Assembly (NCBI GenBank): GCA_947365245.1
Contig: CANAWG010000001.1
Span: 186,001-250,000, forward strand
Direction of reading: 5' to 3'
Origin: an uncultured Oscillibacter sp.
Lineage (GTDB): Bacteria > Bacillota > Clostridia > Oscillospirales > Oscillospiraceae
Length of the DNA: 64,000 nt
The position numbers and the translations under genes were made by a program. Shown piece by piece: positions 18,671 through 34,680 of the stretch (within the stretch, counting starts at the first letter, position 1; the number at the start of each line of letters is the position of its first letter). The notes under the pieces were generated by a model that saw only the letters and a program-made list of their open reading frames with translations, did no database searches and was not told where the DNA came from.

Positions 18671-19459
18671 CTATCCCTGCGAGATGAACCGAAAAACGTT
18701 GTAGAGATCCACGGCCGTAATGAAGAGCACAAGGAGCTTCAAAATCCTCTCCACGCCGCTGTTGTCCAGCTTTCGGGAGATCGCCGCGCCCAGCAGGGCG
18801 CCTCCGATCCCGCCGGCGATCATGCTGGCGAGATGAAGCGGAGCAAAGGCGGGGACAGAACCGGCCGCGGCTGCGAAAGCAATGCTGGAGGCCTGGGAAA
18901 GTGCGATGACGTAGAGGGAGTTCTTTGCGGCGGTCTTGGCGTCCATAGAGAAGAAAAAGAACAGCGCGGCCACATTGTAGGGTCCTCCGCCGATCCCGAG
19001 AAAGGAGGATGTCAAACCGAGGCCCAGGCCAATCGCCGAAATTGCAAAGAGGTTCTCTATGTGTTTCGACGGCAGCCTGTCTTTCTCGCAGATATAGAGC
19101 ATCACAAGGAGCATGACGGCCGTCAAGAGGGCCGCCTGAATCGCGCCCAGAACATTCTCCCGGGCAAAGCTGGTGCGGACCAGCCCAAAGAGCCACTGCC
19201 CCAGCAGTCCTCCCAAAATCGCGCCGCCAGCCAGCGGAGTGCTGACACGGAGCTGAAGCCTGACGCCGCTGTTCCGGGTGCGGACCAGGGAGCTCACCGC
19301 CATACAGAATACGGTGCAGCTGCTGCAGAAGCTGGCAGTTGAGACCGGCAGCAGGCCGAAGAGATCCAAAACGGGCTTAATGATGACGCCTCCTCCGGCG
19401 CCGACGACTGCGCCGACTGCGGAGGCACACAGGCAGATGAAAAACAGGATGACAGGCAT
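18671..19459 (-). CDS. TauE/SafE (TSUP) family membrane permease
   Basis: 262-aa membrane protein with about eight hydrophobic spans and the paired glycine-rich family motifs VGAVVGAGGGVIIKPVLD near the N-terminus and SSFLGIGGGPYNVAALFF near the middle. TSUP proteins move sulfite, sulfoacetate, sulfur-containing or other small organic anions. It follows two sulfatase genes on the same strand with 27 nt between, and GGAGGA precedes its ATG. I infer that it exports sulfate- or sulfite-type waste from the sulfatase reactions, or imports a sulfonated substrate. The direction and substrate are not shown by sequence. Confidence 0.88.
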   Translation of the reverse strand: MPVILFFICLCASAVGAVVGAGGGVIIKPVLDLFGLLPVSTASFCSSCTVFCMAVSSLVRTRNSGVRLQLRVSTPLAGGAILGGLLGQWLFGLVRTSFARENVLGAIQAALLTAVMLLVMLYICEKDRLPSKHIENLFAISAIGLGLGLTSSFLGIGGGPYNVAALFFFFSMDAKTAAKNSLYVIALSQASSIAFAAAAGSVPAFAPLHLASMIAGGIGGALLGAAISRKLDNSGVERILKLLVLFITAVDLYNVFRFISQG

Positions 19460-19486
19460 GGCAGTTCCTCCACGGCAAAGCGTCCG

Positions 19487-20917
19487 TTAAAGGTCAATCG
19501 TATACCCGGCCGGAATGCGGGCACGCTCCTCCGCCTGCCGCATCAGATGATCCGCCCGTTTCGGACCGTAGGGGAAACGGCTGATCCCGGAGACATCGTC
19601 CGCTGTCGCAGCCTGGCCGGGGTCGCAGCGGTCGCCGGCTATGTAGTCAAGCAGCCGCTTCTTCAGCTCCCTGACGCGCGGAGACGCCTCGTCATACTTG
19701 TTGGTGTCCTCGGGAATGGTATCGAAGTAAAAGAATTGATCCGCGGCGACCATATAGATCAGGCGGTCATAGCTGCTTGCAGCCATGTAGGCGCCGGTCT
19801 TCCCGGTCCCGTATTGGGAGAACACCACATCGTGATGCTGCGAGGAGAGGAGGTCTACACCGTCAAAGGCCCCTTCGCCGCCGGAGATGTCCGCATACCG
19901 GAGCAGCGTCGGTGCAATATCCACCAGGGAGCACACGTCGTGGCGCAGCTGCGCCTCTCCTCCCGGCACCCGGAGCAGAAGCGGAATCCGCGCGGCGGCG
20001 TCCAGCATGGAGCGCTTCCCCATGGTGCCGAAGTCCCCCAGCATCTCACCGTGGTCAGATGAGAAGACAATCACCGTGTTGTCGTAGAGCCCCCGTCTCT
20101 TCAGGGCGTCTATGATCCTGCCGACCTGGTAATCCACAAAGGAGACGCAGGCGTAATAGCTGCTCCGGAGCAGAGACAGATCCTGCCGGCTGATGCCGAT
20201 TTTCTCACAGGTGAAGCGGTCGCTGAGAAACAGCGCAAATTCCTCTGGATCCTCCGGCACATAGGGGTCCTCCGAGACCGTGCGGTAGAGCTTGTTCCAG
20301 GGCGCGGGCGGGGCAAAGGGCGGATGGGGATGGATGAAAGAGGACATCAGGAAGAACGGTCTGTCCTCCGGGACGCTCTCCAGGAAGTCCAGGCTCCTGT
20401 CCGCCACCCACTGGGTGGGATGATACTCTATGGGCAGCTGGGAGACCTGCGGGATGTAGTACATCTCCGAGCGCTGTCCGTTGTAGTCAAAGACATTGCG
20501 GTAGGGAGAGTCCATCAGAAAACGGGTGTAGTCGTCCTGCGGGTGGGACAGCTCCTCCTGCGTGAACCGCCGCTCAAAGCCCATTGCGCCGTACAAGTCC
20601 TTGGCGTGGTGCATCTTCCCCACGCAGCAGGTGCTGTAGCCGGCCTGTGTGAAAGCATGGTAAAAGCCCTCCCCCGTATACCGGGAAGCCCCGTTGTTGT
20701 TGCAGCACCCGGAGTGGGCGCAGTACAGCCCGGAGAACATGGAGAATCTGGCCGGTACGCAGACCGGCGCCGGCGTGTAGCACCGGTCGAACACCATGGA
20801 CGATGCGGCGAGGGCGTCGAGATTGGGCGTTTGGATTCTGCCGCACCCAAGCGCGTGGATTGTGTCATAGCGCTGCTGGTCTGTAAAAAGAACCAGAAAA
20901 TTCGGTTGATTGCTCAT
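19487..20917 (-). CDS. Sulfatase, Cys-type, cytoplasmic (sulfatase A)
   Basis: Sulfate-ester hydrolase of the alkaline phosphatase/arylsulfatase fold, 476 aa. It begins MSNQPNFLVLFTDQQRYD, giving the first metal-binding Asp pair (TDQQ). The signature is CVPAR, whose Cys should be converted to formylglycine. Later metal and substrate residues are visible in FSSDHGEMLGDFGTMGKRS. ATG 20917 has GGAGAG 5 nt upstream, so a longer frame to 20977 was rejected. There is no signal peptide, so it should act in the cytoplasm. The Cys-type signature requires the radical-SAM maturase encoded at 33471. The substrate is unknown. Confidence 0.92.
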   Translation of the reverse strand: MSNQPNFLVLFTDQQRYDTIHALGCGRIQTPNLDALAASSMVFDRCYTPAPVCVPARFSMFSGLYCAHSGCCNNNGASRYTGEGFYHAFTQAGYSTCCVGKMHHAKDLYGAMGFERRFTQEELSHPQDDYTRFLMDSPYRNVFDYNGQRSEMYYIPQVSQLPIEYHPTQWVADRSLDFLESVPEDRPFFLMSSFIHPHPPFAPPAPWNKLYRTVSEDPYVPEDPEEFALFLSDRFTCEKIGISRQDLSLLRSSYYACVSFVDYQVGRIIDALKRRGLYDNTVIVFSSDHGEMLGDFGTMGKRSMLDAAARIPLLLRVPGGEAQLRHDVCSLVDIAPTLLRYADISGGEGAFDGVDLLSSQHHDVVFSQYGTGKTGAYMAASSYDRLIYMVAADQFFYFDTIPEDTNKYDEASPRVRELKKRLLDYIAGDRCDPGQAATADDVSGISRFPYGPKRADHLMRQAEERARIPAGYTIDL

Positions 20918-20989
20918 ATTTCTCTCCAATCTTTCCCACAGTGTGCACCTGCAGGGGATCCTCTGTGCCGGGGACATTCCACATGAATG

Positions 20990-22474
20990 TTATGGTTTAT
21001 CCGTTCCCCAATCTTTAATCTGCTCCGCCATATTGGCGCCCTTGGGCTTTCCAACGCCGTGCACGACGGCCTCATCGTATTGCCGCCACTGCCGCCAGTA
21101 CTGCTGTCCGAAGACGGTGGACTCGTCATCCCACTGATCCCGCAATGCGAACAGCCTGCCCCGCAGATACTCTGTGACCGCCTCGTATCCCGCGATGTCG
21201 TAGAAATTGTTTCTCTCCCAGGGGTCGCTCTCCAGATCGAACAGCTGCGTCAGCTTCAAATCCTCCGTCCGGTACTCCACCAGCTTGTAGCGCTCATCCA
21301 TTACGCCGCGGATGCGGGACTGAAACGCCAGATACAGCTCGCGCCTGGTCTTATAGCCCGGGTCCCGGAACATGGGTGCAAAGCTGATCCCCTCCACCGA
21401 GGCGGGAATGTCAATACCGCAGAGCTCGCAGAGGGTGGGAAAGATGTCCAGGAGATACACCAGGTGATCCCTGCGCTGCTCCGCTCCGATGCCGGGACCG
21501 CATATCACCAGGGGAACATGGATGCTGTGTTCGTATATGTTCTGCTTTCCCATCAGGCCGTGCTGGCCGATGGCCAGGCCGTTGTCGCCTGTGAAAATGA
21601 TGATGGTATTTTCCATCAATCCCCTTTGCTCCAATGCGTCCAGCACTCTGCCGATGCTCCGGTCGATATGGCTGATCATCGCGTAGTAATCCGCAATATG
21701 CTTTCGGATTGCCTCAGGCCGCCGGGGATATGGGGCGGTGTTTTCATCCCTGCCCCGATTGGACCAGCCGCAGTTCACCGCGGGCATCTGCGCGAAGTTG
21801 GGCGGCAGGGAAATCGTCTCCGGGTCGTACATCTCCCGAAACTCCTCCGGCATGGTGCGCGGGTCGTGGGGCGCAAGATAGGACAGATAGAGGAAGAACG
21901 GCTCCTGGCCGTCGTATTCCCGGATATAATCCACCGCCGCCCCGGAGAACAGCTCCGTAGAGTGGGCGCCGGCGTGAATCCTGTCGGCGAGAACCGTGAC
22001 CGGTTCGCTGTTCGCCGAGAAATTGGGCGTGAAGCGGATCCGGGCATCGTAAACTCCGTCCCCGTGAAAATCGCTTACGGGCACATTCCAGTGGTCCCAC
22101 ATCCCGCCGAAAAAGATGTCGGCGCCGCCGTCAAAGCTGCGGGAGAAGCTCTCGGTGCCGTTGTGCCATTTTCCGATCCCCGCGGCGTGGTACCCATTCT
22201 CCAAAAAGCACTGGCCCATGGTGACGTCGCAGGACGGAATGTTCTGTCCGGAGTTTTCCAGGTGAAACAGCGTCTTTCCGGTGTTGAGCATGGCGCGGCT
22301 GGGCATACAGACGGCGGAGGCCGTCCCTCCGGGGATGTACGCGCGGGTGAACACGGTTCCCATCCGCACCAGGCGGTCCATGTTGGGGGTCTGAATCTCC
22401 GGATTGCCAAGAGCGTGAATCGTCCCCGCCCGCTGGTCGTCCGTCAGAATCAAAAGGACGTTTGGTCTGTCCAT
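20990..22474 (-). CDS. Sulfatase, Cys-type, cytoplasmic (sulfatase B)
   Basis: 494-aa sulfatase-fold protein. RPNVLLILTDDQRAGTIHAL at the N-terminus gives the Asp pair, CMPSR is the formylglycine signature, and FTGDNGLAIGQHGLMGKQN supplies the second metal and Lys site. No signal peptide is present. ATG 22474 is 8 nt after AAGGAG, whereas ATG 22480 is too close. It is first in a three-gene strand group (sulfatase B, sulfatase A, TSUP) and diverges from the DeoR regulator. It differs clearly from sulfatase A, so it probably acts on a different position or substrate. Confidence 0.92.
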   Translation of the reverse strand: MDRPNVLLILTDDQRAGTIHALGNPEIQTPNMDRLVRMGTVFTRAYIPGGTASAVCMPSRAMLNTGKTLFHLENSGQNIPSCDVTMGQCFLENGYHAAGIGKWHNGTESFSRSFDGGADIFFGGMWDHWNVPVSDFHGDGVYDARIRFTPNFSANSEPVTVLADRIHAGAHSTELFSGAAVDYIREYDGQEPFFLYLSYLAPHDPRTMPEEFREMYDPETISLPPNFAQMPAVNCGWSNRGRDENTAPYPRRPEAIRKHIADYYAMISHIDRSIGRVLDALEQRGLMENTIIIFTGDNGLAIGQHGLMGKQNIYEHSIHVPLVICGPGIGAEQRRDHLVYLLDIFPTLCELCGIDIPASVEGISFAPMFRDPGYKTRRELYLAFQSRIRGVMDERYKLVEYRTEDLKLTQLFDLESDPWERNNFYDIAGYEAVTEYLRGRLFALRDQWDDESTVFGQQYWRQWRQYDEAVVHGVGKPKGANMAEQIKDWGTDKP

Positions 22475-22519
22475 CGTCATCTCTCCTTCTGGTCAGAGTC
22501 TGATTTCCTTCGTGTGCGC

Positions 22520-22548
22520 TTGCAAAAACCCTTGGAGTATGGTAGAAT
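22520..22548 (+). promoter_or_regulatory. Promoter of the DeoR-type regulator
   Basis: TTGCAA at 22520-22525 and TAGAAT at 22543-22548 are separated by 17 nt, a good sigma-A type promoter. It points to the regulator at 22589, in the AT-rich gap between that gene and the divergent sulfatase B. Confidence 0.65.
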
Positions 22549-22569
22549 TAAATTACAAAAATTTGATAT

Positions 22570-22577: not shown

Positions 22578-22588
22578 GAACTGCCAAC

Positions 22589-23341
22589 ATGAATAAGAGA
22601 AGACAGGCCATCGCCGATATCGTCAATCAGCTTGGCGAAATCCATATCCGTGAATTGAAGAGTATGTTTCCCAGCGTCTCCGAGGTCACGCTGCGCAAGG
22701 ACCTGCAGGTCCTTGACGAGGGAAATCAGCTCGTCCGCATACACGGCGGAGCGCGTTCGATTGACGATGTCACATTGAAAAACAGCAATTTCAATACGAG
22801 GACCCTCCTCCACCAGAGTGAGAAAGCGTGCATCGGAGAAAAAGCGGCCAAGCTGCTCAGGGCCGGAATGTCCGCCTATATCTCCTCCGGCAGCACCTGC
22901 GCCGAGCTGGCAAAGCGGCTTCCCCAGGGGCCCCTGCAGATTTTTACGGACGGGATCTCCATCGCGCTGGAGACGCCGGTCTCCCCGGATATCGCAGTGG
23001 AGCTGCTGGGCGGCGTCGTCAACCGCAATCTCATGCGTCTGACCGGTCCGTCGGTGCTGGCGGCGCTGGATACGCTGTATTTTGACTTTGCCTTTTTCGG
23101 CACCATGGGCTTCAATAAGCAGGTGGGCTTCTCTCTCGCCACTCCGGCGATTGCCGCCTCCTGCTTCAAGGCCATTGAGCACAGCCGGCAGGCCGTTATC
23201 CTGATGGACTCCTCCAAGGTCAACCACATGTGTACGGCCCGCAACATCCCGTTCAAATCTGTGGACATTGTGGTCTCGGACGGAAACCTGCCGGACGATG
23301 TGGCCGCGTTTCTCCGGGATAATGACATTACGGTTTTATAA
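22589..23341 (+). CDS. DeoR/GlpR family transcriptional regulator
   Basis: 250-aa regulator. The N-terminal winged helix (residues ~1-55) has RRQAIADIVNQLGEIHIREL and SEVTLRKDLQVLDEGNQLVRIHGGA, typical of DeoR proteins. The C-terminal sugar-phosphate sensor domain shows YISSGSTCAELAKRL, LLGGVVNRNLM and the FFGTMGFN region. DeoR regulators usually respond to phosphorylated sugars. It diverges from sulfatase B and lies inside the sulfatase locus, so it probably controls it, with a kinase product as likely effector. A same-frame extension to 20987 is antisense to sulfatase B and was rejected. A terminator follows at 23355. Confidence 0.92.
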   Translation: MNKRRQAIADIVNQLGEIHIRELKSMFPSVSEVTLRKDLQVLDEGNQLVRIHGGARSIDDVTLKNSNFNTRTLLHQSEKACIGEKAAKLLRAGMSAYISSGSTCAELAKRLPQGPLQIFTDGISIALETPVSPDIAVELLGGVVNRNLMRLTGPSVLAALDTLYFDFAFFGTMGFNKQVGFSLATPAIAASCFKAIEHSRQAVILMDSSKVNHMCTARNIPFKSVDIVVSDGNLPDDVAAFLRDNDITVL

Positions 23342-23354
23342 GGTAAATATCTCT

Positions 23355-23419: not shown

Positions 23420-24865
23420 CTACTCAAGCGGTACACAGCGGCTGAACAGGCCGCTCTCCTCCGGGAGGGAAATCTGCAGCGGAGATGGGGAGAGCCGGTT
23501 ATTCTCCGCCACCGTGCGCAAAAGGCGGTCCCGCAGCAGTGCGTCAATCTCCCGGTACTCCGGCATTGCGGCCAGATTCCGGCACTCCCGCGGGTCTTTT
23601 TCCTCATCGAAGAGAAGATAGGTCTCTCCCCGGCGGTTCAGCGCAATCTTCCACTTTCCGTCATAGAGCATCAGCTCCCCGGCGTACTCCCCCAGGAGGA
23701 CATCCCTGTGCCTGCGGGCGGGAGAGGCGGCACAGCCGCACAGGGATCGGCCGAACTGCTCATACTCCAGCCCGACGCCTGCAAATTCCGCCAGTGTGGG
23801 ACCCACATCCAGCAGGCTCACCAGCGCATCGCTCACATTTCCCCCGCATCCGGCGGTGTCCGGTGTGCGGAGAAGCAGAGGAATGTTCATGGCGGAGCGG
23901 AAGAAATTCCGCTTGTGGACAAAGCCGTGATCCCCGTTCATCTCACCGTGGTCCGATGTAAACAGCACCACCGTGTTGTCCCACTCGCCCCGCTGCCGGA
24001 CCGTCCGGAGCAGGGCCCCGATCTGTTCGTCGATCAATGTGACGCTCCCGCAGTAATTGGCCTGGATTTCCCGGGATTCCCTGTCGGTGCAGCGGATGAC
24101 GGGATTTTGCATCAGCCGGTCATACTCTCCCCGGGGCCGCTCCGGGGCGCCCTCCGCCGTGGGGGGGAGGGGCGGCGGCATGTCCTCCGGAGCGTACAGG
24201 CCGGCGTAGGGTTCGGGCGCGTCCCACGGCTCATGGGGACCCGGGAAGCTGACATGGCAGAACCAGGGGCGGTCCCCGCTGTACTGCTCCAGATACTCAC
24301 GGGCTTTCCGCCCCACATAGGCGTCATAGTAATCCCCGGCGGGCAGAGGAGAGGGCTTTGCGGCGGGACCTTTTGAGCGAGACAGCATATCGGCGCGGAA
24401 ATCCTCCCACAGCCCCTTTGCCCGCCACTCCTCAGACATGTATGTGCGCGTTTGACAGGTGGAGCGGGGACCGCTCACCTCGTTCACCGTCTCAAAGCCG
24501 TATCCGTTTACCAGATTCTCCCGCCGGATAAAGTCGCCGTAGTCCGTGTGGAGATGCAGCTTTCCAAATACCGCTGTCGCATATCCGCTGTCACGGATTG
24601 CCCTGACCCAGAGATTCGCCTGGGGGGAGAGCACATAGCTGGCGTTTTTCCAGACACTTGTGGTATGGGGATACAGTCCGGTCATCATACTGACGCGGGC
24701 GGGGACGCAGAGCGGAGAGACTGTATGGCACTGGGAAAACCGGACGCCCTCCGCGGCCAGACTGTCCAGCGCAGGAGTCCGTGCGCGCCCGCCCGCGCAC
24801 CCCATTGCGTCCCCGCGGAACTGGTCCGCCATGATGAAGAGAATATTGGGTCTTGTGTCTTTCAT
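23420..24865 (-). CDS. Sulfatase, Cys-type, cytoplasmic (sulfatase C)
   Basis: 481-aa sulfatase-fold protein with RPNILFIMADQFRGDAMGCA at the N-terminus, the CVPAR signature in SPLCVPARVSMMTGLYPH, and FTSDHGEMNGDHGFVHKRN near the middle. There is no signal peptide, so it should be cytoplasmic. It is the last gene of the - strand group tctC-tctB-tctA-sulfatase D-kinase-kinase-sulfatase C, 78 nt after the second kinase. Activation would need the maturase at 33471. The substrate is not deducible from the sequence alone. Confidence 0.92.
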   Translation of the reverse strand: MKDTRPNILFIMADQFRGDAMGCAGGRARTPALDSLAAEGVRFSQCHTVSPLCVPARVSMMTGLYPHTTSVWKNASYVLSPQANLWVRAIRDSGYATAVFGKLHLHTDYGDFIRRENLVNGYGFETVNEVSGPRSTCQTRTYMSEEWRAKGLWEDFRADMLSRSKGPAAKPSPLPAGDYYDAYVGRKAREYLEQYSGDRPWFCHVSFPGPHEPWDAPEPYAGLYAPEDMPPPLPPTAEGAPERPRGEYDRLMQNPVIRCTDRESREIQANYCGSVTLIDEQIGALLRTVRQRGEWDNTVVLFTSDHGEMNGDHGFVHKRNFFRSAMNIPLLLRTPDTAGCGGNVSDALVSLLDVGPTLAEFAGVGLEYEQFGRSLCGCAASPARRHRDVLLGEYAGELMLYDGKWKIALNRRGETYLLFDEEKDPRECRNLAAMPEYREIDALLRDRLLRTVAENNRLSPSPLQISLPEESGLFSRCVPLE

Positions 24866-24943: not shown

Positions 24944-25882
24944 TCATTCCGCAGTGTGGGCGAAGCTGTCGAGAAACCGCCGGCGCGTCTCACTGTCCGC
25001 CGTGACGCCGCCCTGCCAGAGCGCCTCAACGACGGCGCCGTAGATGGCGGGGACATCCGCCAGGATCATATTGGCGGCGGACGCCGCCTTTTTCCGCACC
25101 GCCTCCGCGTAGTGGGGATAGGCCCGAAAGATGCCGCCGTTCATCACGACGGTGAACGCGCCGCCGAAGTGTTTCGCGGCGGCATAGGTCAGCTCCGCCA
25201 GCCGGGAGGAGCCGTCCTCCAAAAGGGAGAGGCTGACTGTGTCTCCGGCCGCCGCACATGCAAAGACCACATGGGCAAGGGAGGCGATAAAGGGCCGGCC
25301 CCCCTGGTAGATATCGGCGAACGCGCTTTTGAGATCCTTGTGAAGAGCCTCTGAAAAGCCCTCCGTCAAAAGCGTCGCCTCTCCCCTGCCGTCCAGATGA
25401 CGGTAGGCCTGCTTGAGGCCGTCCCGCGCCAGCTCAAAGCCGCTTCCGCCGGTGTCGATCAGATATCCCAGACCGCCGATGTGGACCAGCGGCTCTCCTT
25501 CAATCCGCGCAAACAGAGAGGACCCCGTTCCGCAGACCATGCCGCAGCCGTCCCTGTGACCCAGCATGCCGGAGATCATGTTGCAGCCGTCGTCCTCGGT
25601 GCGGATCAGCGGGATCTCCGTGCGGGCGCGGAGAAAGGGGTCCAGCCCGACGTCGATGCGGTCCAATCCGGCGATACCGCCGTACAGGGACACAGGGGTC
25701 TGCGGCGCGGAGGCCGAGAGCTCCCTGACCAGGGACAAGATCTGTTCTCTCACCGCCGGGATCCCGATATCCATCGGGTTGCAGCCCGGCTGTCTGCGCC
25801 TGCGGAGAACGCGGCCGGTCTCGTCGGTGAGTACCGCCTCTGTCTTGGTGCCGCCTGCGTCAATGCCGATGTAGTAGTCCAT
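24944..25882 (-). CDS. BadF/BadG/BcrA/BcrD ATPase family sugar-kinase-like protein (2)
   Basis: 312-aa member of the ASKHA fold family that includes N-acetylglucosamine kinase. DYYIGIDAGGTKTEAVLTDE is the first phosphate loop, CNPMDIG and SLYGGIAGLDRID follow, and GMVCGTGSSLF is the second phosphate loop, with GGLGYLIDTGGSGFELAR after it. ATG 25882 lies 1 nt after the stop of the preceding kinase, with GGAGGCGGG upstream. It is clearly related to the first kinase but strongly diverged, so the two may phosphorylate different desulfated products. It contains no radical-enzyme-activator Fe-S cysteines, so a kinase role is favoured. Confidence 0.87.
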   Translation of the reverse strand: MDYYIGIDAGGTKTEAVLTDETGRVLRRRRQPGCNPMDIGIPAVREQILSLVRELSASAPQTPVSLYGGIAGLDRIDVGLDPFLRARTEIPLIRTEDDGCNMISGMLGHRDGCGMVCGTGSSLFARIEGEPLVHIGGLGYLIDTGGSGFELARDGLKQAYRHLDGRGEATLLTEGFSEALHKDLKSAFADIYQGGRPFIASLAHVVFACAAAGDTVSLSLLEDGSSRLAELTYAAAKHFGGAFTVVMNGGIFRAYPHYAEAVRKKAASAANMILADVPAIYGAVVEALWQGGVTADSETRRRFLDSFAHTAE

Positions 25883-25883
25883 C

Positions 25884-26879
25884 TTACCCGCCTCCGTTTG
25901 TTTGTCTGACAGCCTCTCCCCCCGCATCGCCGACGGCTGTCAGGGCCCGAAGATCCCGGGTGAACGTATCCCGAAATCCGTCGGGGAGCTCCAGACCGCT
26001 GCGGTGCATCGCCTCCACCGCCCCGCCGAATACAGGGGGAGCGGATGCCAGAACCAGCTTCGCCTGCTCCGGGCATTTCAGCCGGATCCGCTCCAGATAG
26101 TCCGGGTAGGCGGTGACGATTCCGCCGCCGGCCACCACGGTAAACGCACCGCCGTCAAAGTGGGGCGCCGCCGCCCAGATCAGCTCGGAGAGCCTTGCGG
26201 CGCCGGTCTCAACGATATCATGGCAAACCCTGTCTCCCAGGCGCCGCCCCTCAAAGACCAGATGCGCCAGAGAGGCGAACCGGGCCCTGCCGCCGGCGTA
26301 CAGCGCCGGAAGCACGGAGAGCAGGGGGCCTCCGGTCTCCGCCTCCAGCAGCTCCGTCAGCACGGTGGCCGGTCCTCTTCCGTCGTGGGCGAGACACACG
26401 GCGCGCAGCGCCTCCCGTCCCAGAGAGTAGCCGCTGCCCAGGGTGTCCACGAGATATCCCCAGCCGCCCACATGGAAGATGTCCCGCTCCCGCTTCCTCC
26501 GAATCCATGTCCCGCAGCCCGTCCCGACAATCAGACAGCAGCCGTCCTCGCCGCGGACCAGCTCACTGGAGATCAGGTTCCGTCCGTCCGTCTCAATCGT
26601 GAAGTCTCCGGCGCCGAACATCCCGCGGACATCTTGGGGGAAAAAGTCCTCAAAATATACAAGACCGGCGACGCCGGCGTAGATGGCGCTCAGCTTCCCG
26701 GGGGCATGTCCGGCGGCGGAGCCAATGGCACGAAGCAGCCGCTTTCGGGACTCCTCCACGCCGATGTCCAGCGGATTCGTCCCGGGGTCGGACCGGCAGA
26801 ACAGGATCTGTCCGTCTTCCTGAAAGAGCACGGTGAGGGTCTTTGTCCCGCCGCCGTCGATTGCGATCATATAGCGCAT
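25884..26879 (-). CDS. BadF/BadG/BcrA/BcrD ATPase family sugar-kinase-like protein (1)
   Basis: 331-aa ASKHA-fold protein with MIAIDGGGTKTLTVLFQEDG (first phosphate loop), TNPLDIG, AIYAGVAGLVYF and CLIVGTGCGTWI (second phosphate loop), then GGWGYLVDTLGSGYSLGREA. These are the landmarks of the N-acetylglucosamine-kinase-like branch. ATG 26879 is placed 7 nt after GGGAGGT. It follows sulfatase D after 28 nt and is followed immediately by the second kinase. I infer it phosphorylates a desulfated (amino)sugar or polyol, giving the phosphate ester that the DeoR regulator may sense. Confidence 0.87.
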   Translation of the reverse strand: MRYMIAIDGGGTKTLTVLFQEDGQILFCRSDPGTNPLDIGVEESRKRLLRAIGSAAGHAPGKLSAIYAGVAGLVYFEDFFPQDVRGMFGAGDFTIETDGRNLISSELVRGEDGCCLIVGTGCGTWIRRKRERDIFHVGGWGYLVDTLGSGYSLGREALRAVCLAHDGRGPATVLTELLEAETGGPLLSVLPALYAGGRARFASLAHLVFEGRRLGDRVCHDIVETGAARLSELIWAAAPHFDGGAFTVVAGGGIVTAYPDYLERIRLKCPEQAKLVLASAPPVFGGAVEAMHRSGLELPDGFRDTFTRDLRALTAVGDAGGEAVRQTNGGG

Positions 26880-26907
26880 GCACATACCTCCCGTCCGGTC
26901 GTTTCCC

Positions 26908-28512
26908 TCAGGCGTGGCAGTACTGATCCGGAAACCGGCTGGCCGTACTCATCAGCAGGTGGAGCAGCTTGGCGCGGTATTCGTTCAGGAGCTCCGGATT
27001 CTGACCGTCCGCCAGGAGATTGACATTTTCCTCCGGGTCGTGTCTCCGGTCCGTCATCTCGTATTCGCCCCTCTGGTCCTGGCTGAACTTATAGTCCTCG
27101 TCCACATAGACCAGGGTGTAATCGTCGTTGGACAGATAGCCGTTCCGGTACTCGATCAAGCATTCCGTCCGGGTGCTGACGCCGGAGTAGGCCGGCAGCT
27201 GTGAAACGCCGTCGCAGCGGTAGGGCACGGGGACGCCCAGCAGCTCGCAGCAGGTGGGAAAGACATCCACAGAGGAGGCCAGAACCTGCGTCTCCGCGCC
27301 GCCGCGGCCCGGGGCCCGGATCAGCAGAGGCGTTTTCACGAGTCCGTCGTAGAAGAACGGTCCTTTCAGCCAGGTGCCATGGTCGCCCATCAGCTCCCCG
27401 TGGTCGGAGAGGAAGACAATGACCGTGTTCTCCAGCTCTCCGGACTCCTCCAGCGCCGCGAGGATTCTGCCCACCCCCTGGTCGATCAGGTCGATCATGG
27501 CGTAGGTGTTGCGGATGCGCTGGTCCCGCTCATGGGGGGAGACGGCACTGGGCGCTGATTTTGCCGCGTTGCTGTTTCCGTGGGTCTCAAGCCCCAGTCC
27601 CGCCAGGATTTTGGGGTCCATGAATGCGGCGATCATGTCCGCGCACTGTCCGCACCTGGCCATGTCCTCCGGAGGCATCCCCTCCATGGGCTGGAGCAGT
27701 CCCGCCCGGTGCCATACGCCGTACTTTTGGTAGCGGTAGCGCCTCGGGCGGTCGAGAAGCTCGTCATCCTCGCTGACAGGGAGCTTGACCGGCGCGTTTT
27801 GATAGCGCCTCGCCGTCTCCAGCGGAGGCTGGAACGGATGGTGCGGGTCCGGAAAGCTGGCGACCAGGAAGAACGGCTCTTCTCCGCCGGCATGCTCCCG
27901 GATATAGTCGGCACTGCGCTCTCCGATAAAGATGGAGTCATGCAGGCGCTCAGGCATGGTGGTCACGGGGCATGCGTCAAAGCCCTCCACCGCCTGGGCC
28001 GCCGCCCACTCATCCTTTCCGCCGTGCTCGTGATACCACTTGCCGTAATGGGCGATGGGCGCGGTGGAGTGTCCGACCGTCAGCTCCACATGCTGGTAGC
28101 CCCAGTAGGGGCCGTACCAGTCGATATTGTCGCCGGTCTCCCGCCAGAGCCGGTGGTCCTCCATGGAGATGCGGGGGGCGTTTTCTCCGCAGTCCGTGCA
28201 CTGGAAGTGGATCTTCCCGATGCTCGCCGTGGTGTAGCCGTTCACCGCCAGATGGTCCGCCAGAGTGGGGAGCGGATGCTCCAGCTGGCTGCCGTTGGTC
28301 CACTGGTTGTGGTTGTGGGGGTAGAGCCCCGTAAAGATGGACATCCGGTTGGGCATGCAGATGGGATTGTTGACAAAGCAGTTGTCAAAGCGCAGCGCCT
28401 GGGAGGCGATCCGGTCAATATTCGGCGTGCGGACCACATCGTTGCCGTAGCAGCCCAGGTAGTCGCTGCGCAGCTGGTCGCACATGATGATGACGAGATT
28501 TTGTTTTTTCAT
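26908..28512 (-). CDS. Sulfatase, Cys-type, cytoplasmic (sulfatase D)
   Basis: The longest sulfatase here, 534 aa. NLVIIMCDQLRSDYLGCYGN is at the N-terminus. The signature CMPNR lies in NPICMPNRMSIFTGLYPHNH. FLSDHGELMGDHGTWLKGPF holds later metal and Lys residues. There is no signal peptide. Its ATG overlaps the stop of tctA (ATGA), so it is translated with the transporter, which strongly suggests that it acts on the imported compound. Extra length relative to its neighbours lies mainly in the middle (residues ~130-320). Confidence 0.92.
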   Translation of the reverse strand: MKKQNLVIIMCDQLRSDYLGCYGNDVVRTPNIDRIASQALRFDNCFVNNPICMPNRMSIFTGLYPHNHNQWTNGSQLEHPLPTLADHLAVNGYTTASIGKIHFQCTDCGENAPRISMEDHRLWRETGDNIDWYGPYWGYQHVELTVGHSTAPIAHYGKWYHEHGGKDEWAAAQAVEGFDACPVTTMPERLHDSIFIGERSADYIREHAGGEEPFFLVASFPDPHHPFQPPLETARRYQNAPVKLPVSEDDELLDRPRRYRYQKYGVWHRAGLLQPMEGMPPEDMARCGQCADMIAAFMDPKILAGLGLETHGNSNAAKSAPSAVSPHERDQRIRNTYAMIDLIDQGVGRILAALEESGELENTVIVFLSDHGELMGDHGTWLKGPFFYDGLVKTPLLIRAPGRGGAETQVLASSVDVFPTCCELLGVPVPYRCDGVSQLPAYSGVSTRTECLIEYRNGYLSNDDYTLVYVDEDYKFSQDQRGEYEMTDRRHDPEENVNLLADGQNPELLNEYRAKLLHLLMSTASRFPDQYCHA

Positions 28513-29975
28513 GATTTGCGTCCCTGCCTTACTTTTTTGATGAGGGGCATACAGAGCATCACAAGGGAGATGAGAATAATCGCGAGACTGATGGGCCGGG
28601 TGAAAAAGATTGTGGGACCGCCGATCATCATACTGCGGCGCAGATTGACCTCCGCGATCTCACCCAGGACAAGGCCGATCACAAAGGGGGAAATCGGGAA
28701 GTTCAGACAGCGCAGAACGTAGCCGATCAGGCCGAAAGCGATCATCACAAAGACGTCAAACGTGGTGTTGGCGATGGCAAAGGAGCCCATGACTGTCGCC
28801 ACCACGATGCAGGGCAGCAGGACGATGATGGGGACCTTGGTGACGTTGACGAAGAGGCGGATGAAAAGCTGCCCCTGGAGGAACATAAAGATGTTGATGA
28901 CCAGCAGCCCCAGCATGATGGCCCAAACCCAGGTGGAGCCGTCGTTGAAGAGGGCGAAGCCGGGCGTGATGCCCTGCATCGTCAGCGCTCCCAGGAGAAC
29001 GGCAACAGCGGCGTCGCCCGGAATCCCCAGCGTCAGCAGGGGGATCAGCGTCGCGCCTGTGACGGCGTTGTTTCCGCTCTCCGGCGCGAGGATCCCCTCA
29101 ATGGAGCCGTGTCCGAACTCCTCCGGGTGCTTGGACATCCGCCTCGCCGTGTCATAGGAGAACATCGCCGACAGGGCGCCTCCCGTGCCGGGGACCGCGC
29201 CGATGATGATGCCGATGAGGGAGGACAGGGAGATGACCTTCCAGTGCTTGAGGATGTCCAGCGTGCGGAGATGGGATTTTTCAAATTTCGTGTCGATGGA
29301 TGTGATGTCATCTTTAGAGAGGCCGCGCAGCTTGATTAAAACCTCGCTGATGGCGAATACGCCCAGCATGACGGTCGCCTGGCGGAAACCGGCCAGCAGA
29401 TTTTGGCTGCCGAACGTAAAGCGGGAGGTGCCGTCCAGCATGGAGATGCCCACCGTGGACAGGGACATCCCGGCAAACGCCATGATAATGCCCTTGAAGA
29501 TATCCTTTCCGGAGATGCCGATCACACAGCAAACGCCGAAAAGACAGAGGGCGAAGTACTCCGGAGAGGCAATGTGATAGGCGATCTTCGCGATTTTCGG
29601 CGCGAAGAAAATCAGTGCGAAACAGCTGAGGATCCCGCCGGCGGTGGACCCCACCAGCGCCGCCTTCAGCGCGTCGCCCGCCCTGCCCCTCTGGGCCAGA
29701 GGGTAGCCGTCAAAGGTGGTGGCGGCGGCGTTTGGCGTCCCCGGAGTGTTGATCAGGATGGCGGTGATGGAACCGCCGTAGGTCGCGCCGCAGTAGGAGG
29801 CCAGCATCAGATACATGCCGGCCAGGGAATCCATGCCGAAGGTCAGCGGCAGCAGAATCGCAATGGCAAAAATGACGTTCAGGCCGGGCATTGCGCCGAT
29901 CACGGTGCCGGCGGCCATCCCGATATTCATCATGATGATATTCGGAAGCGTAAAGATCTCCCGCAGGACTTCCAT
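28509..29975 (-). CDS. Tripartite tricarboxylate transporter large permease TctA
   Basis: 488-aa permease with about twelve membrane spans. Family landmarks are GTVIGAMPGLNVIFAIAILL near the N-terminus, YGGSITAILINTPGTPNAAA and GAVPGTGGALSAMFSYD in the middle and GNNAVTGATLIPLLTLGIPG later. ATG 29975 is chosen; GTG 29981 is an alternative. TTT systems import carboxylates and some sugar acids driven by ion gradients and use a separate binding protein. All three parts are present here. Its fusion by overlap to a sulfatase suggests a sulfated substrate, which would be unusual for the family. Confidence 0.93.
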   Translation of the reverse strand: MEVLREIFTLPNIIMMNIGMAAGTVIGAMPGLNVIFAIAILLPLTFGMDSLAGMYLMLASYCGATYGGSITAILINTPGTPNAAATTFDGYPLAQRGRAGDALKAALVGSTAGGILSCFALIFFAPKIAKIAYHIASPEYFALCLFGVCCVIGISGKDIFKGIIMAFAGMSLSTVGISMLDGTSRFTFGSQNLLAGFRQATVMLGVFAISEVLIKLRGLSKDDITSIDTKFEKSHLRTLDILKHWKVISLSSLIGIIIGAVPGTGGALSAMFSYDTARRMSKHPEEFGHGSIEGILAPESGNNAVTGATLIPLLTLGIPGDAAVAVLLGALTMQGITPGFALFNDGSTWVWAIMLGLLVINIFMFLQGQLFIRLFVNVTKVPIIVLLPCIVVATVMGSFAIANTTFDVFVMIAFGLIGYVLRCLNFPISPFVIGLVLGEIAEVNLRRSMMIGGPTIFFTRPISLAIILISLVMLCMPLIKKVRQGRKS

Positions 29976-29999
29976 ACTCACTTCACCCTGCCTCCTTTC

Positions 30000-30488
30000 T
30001 CATCGAAGCGCAACTTTCAAAATGAATCTGAAAATCAGATACATCGCCGCCGCGAAAGAGTAGGCGGCCGCGTAGTATCTCCAGTTTTTACAGCGGAGCA
30101 GCAGCAAAAACGCAGGGATGAAGAGCGCCGTCGCCAGGAGAAAGCTGTATCCGCGCCAGCGGATCCCAGCAAAGTGAAAGATCAGCCCATAGACCAGCAC
30201 CACCAGAAAACCCAGGAGGGGCAGCAGCCTGCCGCGCAGGTCAGGCCTTTCGGGCTCTGTCTCCGAGGCGCTGTTTTGACGCGCTCTCCGGTAGCGGACA
30301 AGCGCCTCCAAAAAACCCGCGGCGGACGCGGCGAAAATCACCGCCATGGTGAATTTTGGAAATGTGCGGTTGGTAAAACCGGTGTTCGACGACAGCTTGA
30401 TCTGCGCCGGAATAAACACCAGATAAACGGCCGCGCTCAAAATCATAAAAACCAGCATCACGGCCATATCCTGCTTCGATTTCTTCAT
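30000..30488 (-). CDS. Tripartite tricarboxylate transporter small permease TctB
   Basis: 162-aa protein with four hydrophobic segments, the usual size and topology of TctB. A charged stretch (RYRRARQNSASETEPERPD) separates the two halves. ATG 30488 follows GAGGGGG, so the 9 codons upstream to 30515 are unlikely to be used. It lies between tctC and tctA, 24 nt from tctA. TctB sequences are poorly conserved, so the assignment relies on size, topology and context. Confidence 0.87.
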   Translation of the reverse strand: MKKSKQDMAVMLVFMILSAAVYLVFIPAQIKLSSNTGFTNRTFPKFTMAVIFAASAAGFLEALVRYRRARQNSASETEPERPDLRGRLLPLLGFLVVLVYGLIFHFAGIRWRGYSFLLATALFIPAFLLLLRCKNWRYYAAAYSFAAAMYLIFRFILKVALR

Positions 30489-30516
30489 GGAATCCCCCCT
30501 CGCAATGTGAGACAAA

Positions 30517-30551: not shown

Positions 30552-30562
30552 AAAAGTCAGGC

Positions 30563-31591
30563 TTAGATCATACCCGTCTTTTCCATAACAGCCTTGTAAA
30601 CAGTGCCGGCGCTTTCCACAATGTCTGTGACTTCCTCCTCGGTCATCACCTCAAAGGTTCCGCCCTCCGGCAGGAAGCCCATAGTCACCAGATATTCCTG
30701 ATACTCCTGAGAGGCGATTGCCGCGCCCAGCTGCTCCTTGAGAAAATCGACAATTTCCTCCGGGGTATCAGCGCGGACGGCAATCCATTTCAGCCCGGTA
30801 ATCACGTGCAGGTCGTTGACGCCGTATTCGCTCAGTACGGGCACATCCGGCAGAATGGGGCAGGCCTCGGAGTCAAAGATTGCAACCACGTCCAGCTCGT
30901 CCAGGTGCTTGACGGCGTCGGTGGCGTCGGTGCAGGAGAAGAGCGCCTCACCGTTGAGCACAGCGGTAATCGCGCCGTTGGACCCGTCATAGACCATTTT
31001 TGTGCCCTTGTCCGTGCCCAACTGATCCAGCGCGGTGGCGGCGGCGATGTCCGCGTATCCGCCGGCGTTGGGCAGCGCATAGACAAACGGATTGGCCTTG
31101 ATATACTCCAGGAACTGATCGATGTCAGCCAGGTCGGACCCTTTCTTGACGCATATAGTGGCCTGGACACTGGGAGTCAGCATGGTCAAAAACCGGAAAT
31201 CTTCCAGCGAGTAGGACAGCTCCGCATTTAAAATGGGCTGTGAGATGCCGCAGGCGTTTGCCATGGTCAGCAGCGTAAGGCCGTCCGGATCGCGGGCCGC
31301 CGCCTCGGCGGTGCCCAGCGTCTGGTTTGCGCCGGCAATGTTTTCCACCACCACCGTGCCGAAAGTCAGCAGGTCCGCGCAGGCGCGGGTGGGCAGGTCT
31401 ACGGCGGCGCCGGCGGCCACCGGCGCGATCCAGGTCACGGTGTCGGAGGGATACCCGGACAGCTTGTCAACTGTCTCAGGCTGCGGCTCGCTGTCTTTCT
31501 CAGGCTCCTCTCCGGCCGGGGAACCACATGCGGCAAGTGCCACTGCCATGGTAAGCGCAAGGACCAGTGCCAGTAACTTTTTCATTTTCAT
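30563..31591 (-). CDS. Tripartite tricarboxylate transporter substrate-binding lipoprotein TctC
   Basis: 342-aa binding protein. The signal peptide has the lipobox LAAC (Cys22), giving a lipoprotein on the outer face of the membrane. The mature part shows the Bug/TctC fold: YPSDTVTWIAPVAAGAAVDL near residues 47-66, VVVENIAGANQTLGTAEAA, YALPNAGGYADIAAA and LGAAIASQEYQEYLVTMGF near the end. It is first in the operon behind a near-consensus promoter and is followed by an attenuating hairpin. The ligand is not known. TctC proteins usually bind carboxylates. Confidence 0.92.
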   Translation of the reverse strand: MKMKKLLALVLALTMAVALAACGSPAGEEPEKDSEPQPETVDKLSGYPSDTVTWIAPVAAGAAVDLPTRACADLLTFGTVVVENIAGANQTLGTAEAAARDPDGLTLLTMANACGISQPILNAELSYSLEDFRFLTMLTPSVQATICVKKGSDLADIDQFLEYIKANPFVYALPNAGGYADIAAATALDQLGTDKGTKMVYDGSNGAITAVLNGEALFSCTDATDAVKHLDELDVVAIFDSEACPILPDVPVLSEYGVNDLHVITGLKWIAVRADTPEEIVDFLKEQLGAAIASQEYQEYLVTMGFLPEGGTFEVMTEEEVTDIVESAGTVYKAVMEKTGMI

Positions 31592-31639
31592 CGCCCTTTC
31601 TCGAATTTTGTTTTAAAATACTATTTTGTAAAAAATAGA

Positions 31640-31647
31640 TTTCGTTT
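31640..31647. promoter_or_regulatory. TTTCGTTT box next to the tctC promoter
   Basis: TTTCGTTT (+ strand) begins 2 nt downstream of the tctC -10 element, at the expected transcription start. The same word in the other orientation lies at 31908-31915 beside the divergent promoter. Proposed operator of the DeoR regulator. Confidence 0.45.
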
Positions 31648-31649
31648 TG

Positions 31650-31678
31650 ATTATACAAGACCGTGAAAAAGAAGTCAA
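31650..31678 (-). promoter_or_regulatory. Promoter of the tctC-sulfatase C operon
   Basis: On the - strand TTGACT (31678-31673), a 17-nt spacer and TATAAT (31655-31650) give a near-consensus sigma-A promoter about 60 nt before the tctC start. Confidence 0.85.
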
Positions 31679-31870
31679 GAGAGAATTCGTCTTTTTCTGT
31701 CAAAGAATTGAATAAATCAGTGAAGTTTGTACAAATCACAGTGCAAACTTCCGACTATCTCGTGACAATTTCAACATTATTGAACGGAAAATTTCATAAT
31801 TAATGGTTTACCTCAGAAGAAAATCCGATTTTTCAGGACCCGTTTTCTCCTTGCTTTTGATATTTTTCTC

Positions 31871-31899
31871 TTGACTCCAACAAAAAAATGCGCTACGAT
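31871..31899 (+). promoter_or_regulatory. Promoter of the glycerol-1-phosphate-dehydrogenase-like gene
   Basis: TTGACT at 31871-31876, a 17-nt spacer and TACGAT at 31894-31899 form a good sigma-A promoter, about 64 nt before the start codon. Confidence 0.75.
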
Positions 31900-31902
31900 T
31901 TG

Positions 31903-31915
31903 TTTCGAAACGAAA
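31903..31915. promoter_or_regulatory. Palindrome TTTCGAAACGAAA, possible operator
   Basis: An inverted repeat TTTCG-AAA-CGAAA starting 3 nt after the -10 element, containing AAACGAAA as at the divergent promoter. Read on the - strand the region is CTTTGCTTTCGTTTCG, a run of TTTCG-like repeats such as some DeoR sugar regulators recognise. Confidence 0.45.
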
Positions 31916-31962
31916 GCAAAGTGGCGTGCCTTTGAAAAATCCGGAGAAGGAGACGAAAAGAG

Positions 31963-33324: not shown

Positions 33325-33359
33325 GCGGCGTTTTTTGGGGAGGAACACTCGGCAATTCC

Positions 33360-33388
33360 TTGCCAGTACGCAGATTTTGTACTATAAT
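33360..33388 (+). promoter_or_regulatory. Promoter of the sulfatase maturase gene
   Basis: TTGCCA at 33360-33365, 17 nt, then TATAAT at 33383-33388, about 82 nt before the maturase ATG. It lies in the 146-nt gap after the dehydrogenase gene, so the maturase can be expressed on its own. Confidence 0.7.
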
Positions 33389-33470
33389 GACGGCGTGGAC
33401 TGCGCTTTGGATGCGGCGTAGAACGGACTGCCCGCCGGCTCGGCCGGCCGCAGGGAAAGAAGAGGTCGGT

Positions 33471-34625
33471 ATGCCCCCTGTTCATATCATGCTCAAGCCC
33501 GCCTCGGGTCTTTGCAATATGCGCTGCCGCTACTGTTTTTACGCGGATGAAATGAAAAACCGGGCCGTATCCTCCTACGGGCTGATGTCGGAGGATACCC
33601 TGGAGGCCATTGTCCGAAAGGCGGAGGAGGCTGCCGACGGAACGTGTACGTTCGGTCTTCAGGGCGGCGAGCCGACGCTGGCGGGACTGGATTTTTTCAG
33701 GACACTGACGGCACTTCAGAAAAAGTACAACACCAAGGGCCTTGTGATTCACAATGCGCTGCAGACCAATGGCTTTCTCATTGATGAGCGCTGGGCGGAG
33801 TTCTTCGCGGAAAACGGGTATCTCGTGGGGATCTCTCTGGACGGCACCCGCGGTCTTCACGATCTCTACCGCCGGGACGCGGAGGACCGGGGAACTTTCG
33901 ACCGGGTGATGCGCTCCATCTCGCTGCTGGAGCGGTACGGGGTGGAGTACAACATCCTCACGGTCGTGACAGCCCAGACAGCGAAGCACATCGGGGAGGT
34001 GTATCGGTTCTTTGCGCGGAAAAACCTCCGCTATCAGCAGTACATCCCCTGCCTGGACCCGCTGGGGGCGGTACGGGGAGAGCGGCGGTATTCCCTGACG
34101 CCTGAGCTGTACGGGCGGTTTCTGACAAAGCTCTTTGATCTGTGGTATGAGGACGTGGTCCACGGACGTTTTATCTACATCCGCTATTTTGAGAATCTGC
34201 TGGGTATGATGCTGGGCAGAGCGCCGGAGAGCTGCGGCGTCAGCGGCGTCTGCTCCCGGCAGTACGTGGTCGAGTCCGACGGGAGCGTGTACCCCTGCGA
34301 CTTCTATATGCTGGACGAATACCGGCTTGGGTCTCTGGTGACGGACAGCTTTGAACAGCTGGAACAGCGCAGGGCGGAGCTTCACTTCATAGAGGACTCG
34401 GCGGTCTGGCCCCGGAAGTGCAGGGACTGCCGCTGGGCCGGCGTCTGCCGCGACGGCTGCCGCCGGGACCGTGTCCCGGACACGGACCAGACCTCCGGCC
34501 TGAATTACTTCTGTTCTGCCTATCAGTCCTTTTTCTCCTACGCAATGCCCCGATTGAGCAGTATGCGCAGGGAGATTCTGAGGAACACCAGCGCAGGGCG
34601 GACGGATGCACCGCCGGTCCGCTGA
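33471..34625 (+). CDS. Anaerobic sulfatase-maturating enzyme (radical SAM/SPASM)
   Basis: 384-aa radical SAM enzyme that would oxidise the active-site Cys of sulfatases to formylglycine without oxygen. The N-terminus MPPVHIMLKPASGLCNMRCR is the classic start of this family, with the CxxxCxxC cluster in CNMRCRYCFY. FGLQGGEPTLAG and LQTNGFLIDERW follow. The C-terminal SPASM region has Cys in CGVSGVCSRQYV, VYPCDFYMLDEYRLG and the KCRDCRWAGVCRDGCRRD stretch, for two extra 4Fe-4S clusters. ATG 33471 matches the family start, so ATG 33360 was rejected. It is the only maturase in the window and should serve all four Cys-type sulfatases. Confidence 0.93.
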   Translation: MPPVHIMLKPASGLCNMRCRYCFYADEMKNRAVSSYGLMSEDTLEAIVRKAEEAADGTCTFGLQGGEPTLAGLDFFRTLTALQKKYNTKGLVIHNALQTNGFLIDERWAEFFAENGYLVGISLDGTRGLHDLYRRDAEDRGTFDRVMRSISLLERYGVEYNILTVVTAQTAKHIGEVYRFFARKNLRYQQYIPCLDPLGAVRGERRYSLTPELYGRFLTKLFDLWYEDVVHGRFIYIRYFENLLGMMLGRAPESCGVSGVCSRQYVVESDGSVYPCDFYMLDEYRLGSLVTDSFEQLEQRRAELHFIEDSAVWPRKCRDCRWAGVCRDGCRRDRVPDTDQTSGLNYFCSAYQSFFSYAMPRLSSMRREILRNTSAGRTDAPPVR

Positions 34626-34629
34626 CCCG

Positions 34630-34680
34630 AAAAGAGAGAATGTCCGCCGGAGCAATGCTCCGGCGGACATTCTCTCTTTT
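34630..34680. terminator. Bidirectional terminator after the maturase gene
   Basis: A perfect 24-bp inverted repeat with a 3-nt loop (arms 34630-34653 and 34657-34680). The outer ends are AAAAGAGAG and CTCTCTTTT, giving U-rich tails on both strands. It closes the sulfatase locus and could also stop the - strand EFR1 transcript. Confidence 0.85.

Follow-up and report, generated by a model that had tools for sequence, protein, structure and literature searches.

Sulfatases, BadF-type kinases and a G1PDH-like dehydrogenase recur together with exchangeable importers in Oscillibacter

We analysed a stretch of 64,000 nucleotides (hereafter the window; assembly GCA_947365245.1, contig 1, positions 186001-250000) from the 2.82 Mb, 53-contig genome of an uncultured Oscillibacter sp., in which 13 genes at window positions 18671-34625 bring together sulfatases, kinases, a dehydrogenase and an importer (Table 1). 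Read along the minus strand from tctC, the order is tctC, tctB, tctA, the sulfatase gene Sulf4, the kinase genes BadF2 and BadF1, Sulf3, Sulf2, Sulf1 and a TSUP permease gene. Between Sulf2 and Sulf3, a DeoR-family regulator gene occupies the plus strand, as do a gene resembling glycerol-1-phosphate dehydrogenase (G1PDH) and a sulfatase maturase gene, these last two heading away from tctC. Families were called from Pfam profile matches, all above gathering scores, with NCBIfam equivalog cut-offs as a second test, and every gene named in an earlier interpretation of the letters (the sequence-only reading) was present: four sulfatases, two BadF proteins, TctCBA, TSUP, DeoR, the G1PDH-like enzyme and the maturase. 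That reading had placed the locus at 18671..34680; its start holds, whilst the last gene ends at 34625 and is followed by an inverted repeat. As it had also observed, the tctA stop overlaps a sulfatase start, namely that of Sulf4 (28512), by 4 bases, and Pfam scans of the locus proteins gave no glycosidase family match among the 13 genes. The glycosidase or lyase plus SusCD that mark a polysaccharide utilisation locus (PUL) are likewise absent from these 13.

All four sulfatases combine a strong PF00884 match (158.9-178.2 bits, cut-off 25) with a CxPxR nucleophile motif, read from the translations, and are thus type I (formylglycine) sulfatases, all of Cys type. Signal peptides were judged by eye, not with a predictor: as previously proposed, none is visible in Sulf1-4, and the core strand starts at most 7 residues from the start codon. 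Sulf1 carries an extra, non-hydrophobic N-terminal stretch of 20 residues, and its annotated start is probably mis-set, the real one being M21 (about 20917). A motif-based signal-peptide survey over relatives caught just 14 sulfatases, of which three belong to the window, and we therefore confine the reading to Sulf1-4. The genome holds seven PF00884 matches, and the four strongest (E < 1e-45) all lie in this one locus, so chance clustering does not explain it; the other three (E 6.5e-26 to 2.9e-8, frames of 612-642 aa) are LtaS-like by size alone. Sulf1-4 score 188.1, 163.4, 213.1 and 193.5 bits against the choline sulfatase model TIGR03417, whose cut-off is 433.45. Their nearest solved structures include choline sulfatases, and the best match of Sulf2 is a mucin-desulfating sulfatase; we rejected reading a substrate from these structures, since the matches do not discriminate. 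The maturase exceeds the cut-offs of both anaerobic models (441 bits for NF010321; 402.9 versus 349.45 bits for TIGR03942), with its start set at ATG 33471, a TTG at 33360 also being present.

TctA, TctB and TctC are adjacent, and a lipobox (LAAC) read in the translation marks TctC for export, as in a tripartite tricarboxylate transporter (TTT). The known cargo of TTT systems consists mainly of carboxylates. Within the genus, TctC has two relatives of 40-41% identity, both in one genome (G1141); all others among the 65 matches listed reach at most 34%. In a comparison of 13 rows, of which three (L126, L129 and L131) were excluded as wrong-frame, the window's TctC and these two relatives have loop motifs in common that are absent, by eye, from the other genus rows. 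The two kinases are 41% identical to each other and belong to the BadF/BadG ATPase superfamily (PF01869, gathering score 31.5), and score 73.3 and 73.8 bits against the NagK model NF046058, below its cut-off of 370. The G1PDH-like protein has in common with solved enzymes, in an alignment, its Fe-ADH_2 domain and the motifs GDLLGK, SRPASGxEHHISH and HG, which we take to bind metal; it scores 202.7 bits against the G1PDH equivalog NF002022 (cut-off 413). Neither the NagK nor the G1PDH cut-off is thus reached, and the substrates proposed below for kinase and dehydrogenase are putative.

Conservation of the neighbourhood in relatives, which the sequence-only reading had set in advance as the finding it could fail on, was borne out. 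Across 86 genomes of the genus there were 16 further G1PDH-like matches (E < 1e-60; 62-69% identity) in 10 other genomes, and all 16 neighbourhoods were fetched; they are of two kinds, five loci with a sulfatase and 11 with none in the stretch fetched. A 68% relative of the window's gene lies at L054. The five sulfatase loci (L109, L110, L113, L114 and L115), from three genomes of three other species, each combine the G1PDH-like gene with a single sulfatase, a single BadF kinase and an ATP-binding cassette (ABC) importer, in an order that differs from the window's. This importer, of five genes with an NMT1/SsuA-like binding protein (67.6 bits against SsuA_fam, cut-off 163.5), stands in place of TctABC. 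L110 and L115 additionally hold a maturase and a DeoR gene, L115 also a TSUP gene; L113 and L114 have one DeoR gene in common, the G1PDH-like gene of L114 is broken into two frames, and a DctM relative lies near L110. In a sixth genome (G1113), a Sulf2 relative, a kinase and the ABC importer occupy one contig (L139) and the G1PDH-like gene another (L121). The enzyme set is therefore a real module, and TctABC is an exchangeable part of it and not the centre that the sequence-only reading had made it. In the adjoining modules L113 and L114 (genome G1109), the G1PDH-like sequences show no tree distance across the stretch compared, which may reflect recent duplication or conversion.

Among the genus sulfatases as a whole, we counted PF00884 matches at E < 1e-30 in frames below 600 aa, a limit that excludes longer frames including LtaS-size proteins. 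This gave 47 matches from 20 genomes in 36 clusters, with surroundings fetched for 34; G1108:C42 and G1138:C60 are counted only. TctA lies within 6 kb of six clusters (window, L134, L136, L148, L149 and L158) against 0.29 expected from the 114 genus TctA genes, and TctABC beside sulfatases is thus more widespread than the window's locus. The corresponding Poisson value of 6e-7 presupposes even placement and takes no account of relatedness, such as that between L148 and L149, which are the same locus in two species. In these two, the sulfatase begins 2 bases past the TctA stop and is accompanied by a GntR regulator, a maturase and TSUP, and genes occupy the TctC and TctB places, by position only; in L134, a xylose-isomerase-like barrel stands between TctA and sulfatase, together with a LacI regulator. 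An SsuA-type permease adjoins 18 of the 36 clusters, 12 with a close relative and six with a weaker one (26-27%). All ten of the closest permeases lie at most 4.9 kb from a sulfatase, two of them serving two clusters each; among the weaker matches listed, 35 of 41 are not beside a counted sulfatase. In L145, L157 and L160, two genes in a constant order, of about 610-627 aa and 490-500 aa, precede the SsuA-type importer and sulfatases and may encode a two-component system.

The kinase follows the rest of the set. Ten BadF1-type matches (E < 1e-25) were found in the genus, nine of them at 41-100% identity; eight of these nine, including the window's two, adjoin a sulfatase, and the ninth (L140) shares its 3.8-kb contig with a DeoR gene and a partial binding-protein gene. 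The tenth (30%, genome G1098) is weak and has no sulfatase within the 9.2 kb fetched. All five genomes with a kinase of at least 41% identity carry the G1PDH-like gene, against 6 of the 81 others (Fisher 1.3e-5); if the weak match is counted, the figures are 5 of 6 against 6 of 80 (7e-5). No kinase match came from the six genomes in which the G1PDH-like gene was seen solely in surroundings lacking a sulfatase. This presence of the kinase where sulfatase and dehydrogenase coincide suggests that the G1PDH-like enzyme acts on a phosphorylated compound, made by the kinase after desulfation. Kinases are 67-82% identical among Sulf2-type loci, 75% between L110 and L115 and 41-51% between these types, with those of L114 and L140 (57%) forming a further pair. 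Such tracking of kinase type with sulfatase type would be expected if both enzymes have a common substrate.

Relatives of the window's sulfatases stand singly elsewhere. The 52% relative of Sulf1 is the only sulfatase of L114, with a kinase, ABC importer and G1PDH-like gene; Sulf2 has relatives of 76-77% in L109, L113 and L139, adjoining BadF and the SsuA-type ABC genes; and the 65% relative of Sulf3 in L151 is convergent with a 60% DeoR gene, an arrangement as in the window. The window hence resembles a merger of several modules, each with one sulfatase, under a single TctABC importer. It follows from this view that the single multiply sulfated substrate of the sequence-only reading is not required, as several singly sulfated relatives would do. 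We rejected Sulf4 as a locus marker: of 300 genomes drawn from the family, just two others (L002 and L003) have matches at E < 1e-40, of 37-38% identity. The regulator has relatives of 43-60% in L110, L113/L114 (the common gene), L115, L140 and L151. TSUP relatives of 38-45% occur in ten other fetched sulfatase loci (L035, L054, L138, L141, L144, L148, L149, L150, L154 and L156), and 10 of the 34 cluster surroundings hold TSUP (the window, L115 and the last eight of those just named).

The G1PDH-like gene has other companions as well. Four sulfatase-free loci (L112, L118, L119 and L120) place it with DctP and DctM of a tripartite ATP-independent periplasmic (TRAP) transporter, a PHP/CehA-like hydrolase and a LacI regulator, with DctQ in addition in the last three; this is possibly a second undescribed pathway sharing the same dehydrogenase. 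The gene lies with a sugar-type binding protein, a xylose-isomerase-like barrel and a HisJ-family PHP protein in L117, with phosphotransferase system (PTS) enzyme I and a PHP relative in L111, and with an HAD protein in L108; in the remaining sulfatase-free loci its neighbours are without family assignment or are regulators only. In the order, 97 of 394 genomes have a G1PDH-like gene at E < 1e-50, the window included, and just two others reach 50% identity. One of these, G333 (L035) from another family, has a sulfatase and TSUP directly adjoining the gene and a PTS nearby, with no BadF match near it; in the other, G618 (L034), transketolase, RpiA and an HAD protein accompany the gene, with no sulfatase match. 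At E < 1e-90 the gene is found in 2 of 87 genomes of G333's family, and in 10 of 391 genomes of the class including the window, the nine stretches fetched for the latter giving no sulfatase match.

The coordinates of the locus are collected in Table 1. The inverted repeat directly after the maturase stop is a probable terminator at the end of the locus. GC content is 0.53-0.65 within the locus, 0.70-0.73 in the left flank and about 0.65 in the right flank. The right flank (34770-38240) encodes a ferredoxin-domain protein and a ClpC-like ATPase, a pair kept in all nine sister genomes opened; the genes that follow it there include none from the window's locus, five of the nine sharing one neighbour gene. 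This GC contrast and the variable neighbours suggest that the locus occupies an accessory, variable site. The left flank (15303-18528, about 70% GC) carries cobalamin-type genes (CobQ/CobB-like, CbiC).

Table 1 Features of the sulfatase locus, in window coordinates.
Feature	Position	Strand	Profile or structure match
TSUP (TauE/SafE) permease, presumed sulfate/sulfite exporter	18671..19459	-	PF01925 106.3 bits
Sulf1, Cys-type sulfatase (CVPAR)	19487..20977	-	PF00884 178.2 bits
Sulf2, Cys-type sulfatase (CMPSR)	20990..22480	-	PF00884 162.8 bits
DeoR-family regulator	22589..23341	+	PF08220 (HTH) 45.1 bits; PF00455 (sensor) 104.3 bits
Sulf3, Cys-type sulfatase (CVPAR)	23420..24865	-	PF00884 170 bits
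BadF1, BadF/NagK-type sugar kinase	24944..25927	-	PF01869 75.1 bits; PDB hexokinase 4.2e-20
BadF2, second kinase	25884..26885	-	PF01869 62.8 bits; PDB MurNAc/GlcNAc kinase 1.2e-16
Sulf4, Cys-type sulfatase (CMPNR)	26908..28512	-	PF00884 158.9 bits
TctA, large TTT permease subunit	28509..29981	-	PF01970 476.8 bits
TctB, small TTT permease subunit	30000..30515	-	PF07331 44.9 bits
TctC, solute-binding lipoprotein	30563..31591	-	PF03401 63.1 bits; PDB BugD 8.9e-21
G1PDH-like oxidoreductase, 453 aa	31963..33324	+	PF13685 (Fe-ADH_2) 105.2 bits; PDB G1PDH 2.6e-51
Anaerobic sulfatase maturase (anSME), radical SAM/SPASM	33471..34625	+	NF010321 483.5 bits; Radical_SAM 75.3 bits; SPASM 32.0 bits
Perfect 26-base inverted repeat, 1-base gap	34629-34681		

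Taken together, this analysis makes it probable that the locus serves the catabolism of small sulfate esters imported whole; among putative substrates, a sulfated sugar acid or polyol agrees best with the genes. TctC would bind the sulfated molecule and TctAB would import it; the maturase would activate the four sulfatases, which would remove sulfate in the cytoplasm, each probably serving a distinct sulfate position or related substrate. A BadF-type kinase would phosphorylate the desulfated molecule, and the G1PDH-like enzyme would oxidise the carbon next to the phosphate to give a keto-phosphate near central metabolism, whilst TSUP would export the sulfate and DeoR would control the gene set. 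G1PDH oxidises a carbon beside CH2-O-phosphate, and by that chemistry a sugar acid or polyol would need no further local enzyme. Gene content, sulfatases lacking a visible export signal, the identity of the maturase and the linkage of sulfatase, kinase, dehydrogenase and anion-type importer are direct observations, from which we infer the direction and order of the steps and the roles of TSUP and DeoR. The sequence-only reading, confirmed in what it observed, is partly supported in its interpretation: import, desulfation, phosphorylation and oxidation fit the genes, and the set recurs, whereas its TctABC centre and single multiply sulfated substrate do not stand.

Several observations weigh against this proposal. 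The exact combination of TctABC, kinase and G1PDH-like gene was seen in the window only, and one of the TctC relatives (L135) has no adjoining sulfatase, the nearest being 11.6 kb away. Neither importer lies within 6 kb of 12 of the 36 clusters, three of which begin less than 500 bases from a contig end (among the importer-free clusters, L151 has sugar-type ABC permeases and L144 and L162 have Opp-type matches), and 108 of the 114 genus TctA genes have no counted cluster within 6 kb. A kinase is found at just 7 of the 36 clusters, most genus sulfatases working without one, and the grouping of kinases is also expected if whole loci simply descend together. The 11 G1PDH-like loci without a sulfatase in the stretch fetched, two of which (L108 and L121) are 3.7-kb contigs, suggest that this enzyme may be a shared helper. 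In the tree, the genus copies form one clade (100/99) with inner forks mostly unresolved, and the sulfatase-linked copies form no supported clade. In L074, L075 and L076, from other families of the Clostridia, the C-terminus of a G1PDH-like protein is fused, by eye, to a NagD-like HAD domain in a frame of about 730-745 aa, which could mean that the enzyme works reductively.

The BadF relatives of known structure are, moreover, hexose-type sugar kinases (hexokinase and MurNAc/GlcNAc kinases), as would be expected if the cargo were sulfated aldoses, such as hexosamines or galactose freed from mucin or glycosaminoglycans by other microbes, that are desulfated, phosphorylated by BadF and passed to hexose catabolism, with the G1PDH-like enzyme in a side role. 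The mucin-desulfating best structure of Sulf2, an aldose epimerase beside related sulfatases in L143 and L155, and AgaR among the best matches of DeoR (120.6 and 120.8 bits against AgaR and GlpR, below their cut-offs of 260 and 300) point the same way. We nevertheless regard aldoses as a rather unlikely cargo, given the distance of both kinases from the NagK cut-off (73 and 74 versus 370 bits), the lack of a NagA/NagB-type gene among the 13, the association of the G1PDH-like gene with the kinase and the mainly carboxylate role of TTT systems.

If the goal were instead sulfate and not carbon, the genes would scavenge sulfur from assorted sulfate esters, as the ats genes of Pseudomonas do. The architecture is shared, in that a sulfatase lacking an export signal adjoins an SsuA-type importer, albeit here with SsuA_fam below cut-off; we give scavenging little credence, because the sulfatases are accompanied by a kinase and a dehydrogenase, no sulfate-assimilation gene is among the 13, and TSUP, if an exporter, would discard the sulfate. 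That the sulfatase operon and the G1PDH-maturase pair are unrelated neighbours, brought together by chance or by recent insertion at a variable site, would agree with their opposite strands and with the non-locus genes that follow the ClpC/ferredoxin pair in the nine sister genomes; this is highly improbable, as the same genes occur together in five other loci in a different order and the kinase co-occurs with the G1PDH-like gene across genomes.

A bolder form of our preferred proposal, a catabolic module for imported sulfate esters, can be put forward as a quite unlikely conjecture. TctABC and a clade of SsuA-type ABC importers would be interchangeable entry points to a so far undescribed system for sulfate-ester uptake in Clostridia and Proteobacteria, and the cargo of its kinase-bearing version in the genus would be a sulfated four-carbon sugar acid or similar: once desulfated, it would be converted by BadF to the 4-phosphate, the G1PDH-like enzyme would oxidise the adjacent C3, and the 3-oxo acid would lose CO2 to give dihydroxyacetone phosphate. 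DtnK and PdxA2 belong to tetronate routes in which a kinase is followed by a dehydrogenase; the four-carbon route, if true, would parallel these with unrelated enzymes.

Research on bacterial sulfatases has concentrated on secreted enzymes that act on polymers. The present loci point to a pool of small sulfated molecules taken up intact by some bacteria; they offer a testable gene set with an orphan kinase-dehydrogenase pair, and the binding proteins of their importers could be used to identify sulfated ligands. In agreement with the sequence-only reading, which knew of no described pathway with this gene set, the literature searched, incomplete for subscription papers, gave no account of TctABC with sulfatases or of this combination.

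Known systems resemble the locus in part. AtsRBC/AtsA of Pseudomonas pairs SsuA-type ABC import of sulfate esters with an intracellular sulfatase, like the five ABC-bearing loci, but it serves sulfur supply without kinase or dehydrogenase, and the window's locus has no such ABC importer. Choline-O-sulfatase (BetC) is a Cys-type sulfatase acting on a small imported ester, as proposed here, yet all four window sulfatases miss the choline sulfatase cut-off and betaine genes are absent. PULs also cluster several sulfatases with a maturase, and differ from the window's locus in having glycosidases, SusCD and exported sulfatases. G1PDH and the Bacillus AraL-AraM pair have their dehydrogenase superfamily in common with the window's enzyme, and the NagD-like HAD fusion occurs in distant relatives; the window's protein misses the G1PDH cut-off and has kinase and sulfatase partners instead.

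Parallels in transporter arrangement also come from annotated plasmid records of Proteobacteria. A Sulf4 match was present in 651 plasmid records, of which the best 15 were opened, a choice made by similarity to the TctA-linked sulfatase and carrying no background rate. TTT genes stood beside the sulfatase in six of these 15, from Polaromonas, Roseibium, Paracoccus (H4), Sulfitobacter SK012 (two) and S. mediterraneus. Five others (H5, H6, H8, H9 and H14, with H8 and H9 near-identical) had ABC genes or an ABC binding protein there. Neither importer directly adjoined the sulfatase in H2 (neighbours mostly hypothetical), H10 (a phosphate transporter, ABC genes further off) and H11, and H13 was without annotation. 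Sugar-acid-type genes lay nearby in three of the six TTT plasmids. Beside the sulfatase and TctCBA, the Paracoccus plasmid encodes L-threonate dehydrogenase, 3-oxo-tetronate kinase, an aldolase and a TIM-barrel protein, and that of Polaromonas has L-rhamnonate dehydratase beside TctC and sulfatase; a mandelate-racemase-family protein (Roseibium) and an alpha-hydroxy-acid oxidase (one Sulfitobacter plasmid) occur near the corresponding genes. These neighbours agree with the carboxylate role of TTT importers and point to sulfated sugar or hydroxy acids as the likely substrates of TTT-linked sulfatases. In Sulfitobacter (L164, L166 and L177), a universal stress protein gene separates TctA and sulfatase in two of three cassettes. 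Compared with the window, the plasmids carry sugar-acid or hydroxy-acid enzymes in place of BadF and the G1PDH-like enzyme, and the maturase, present in two of six, is the aerobic formylglycine-generating enzyme and not the anaerobic type. Their sulfatases are 30-34% identical to Sulf4 and adjoin TTT genes as in the window, and in Sulfitobacter sp. SK012 the sulfatase start even overlaps the tctA stop by the same 4 bases.

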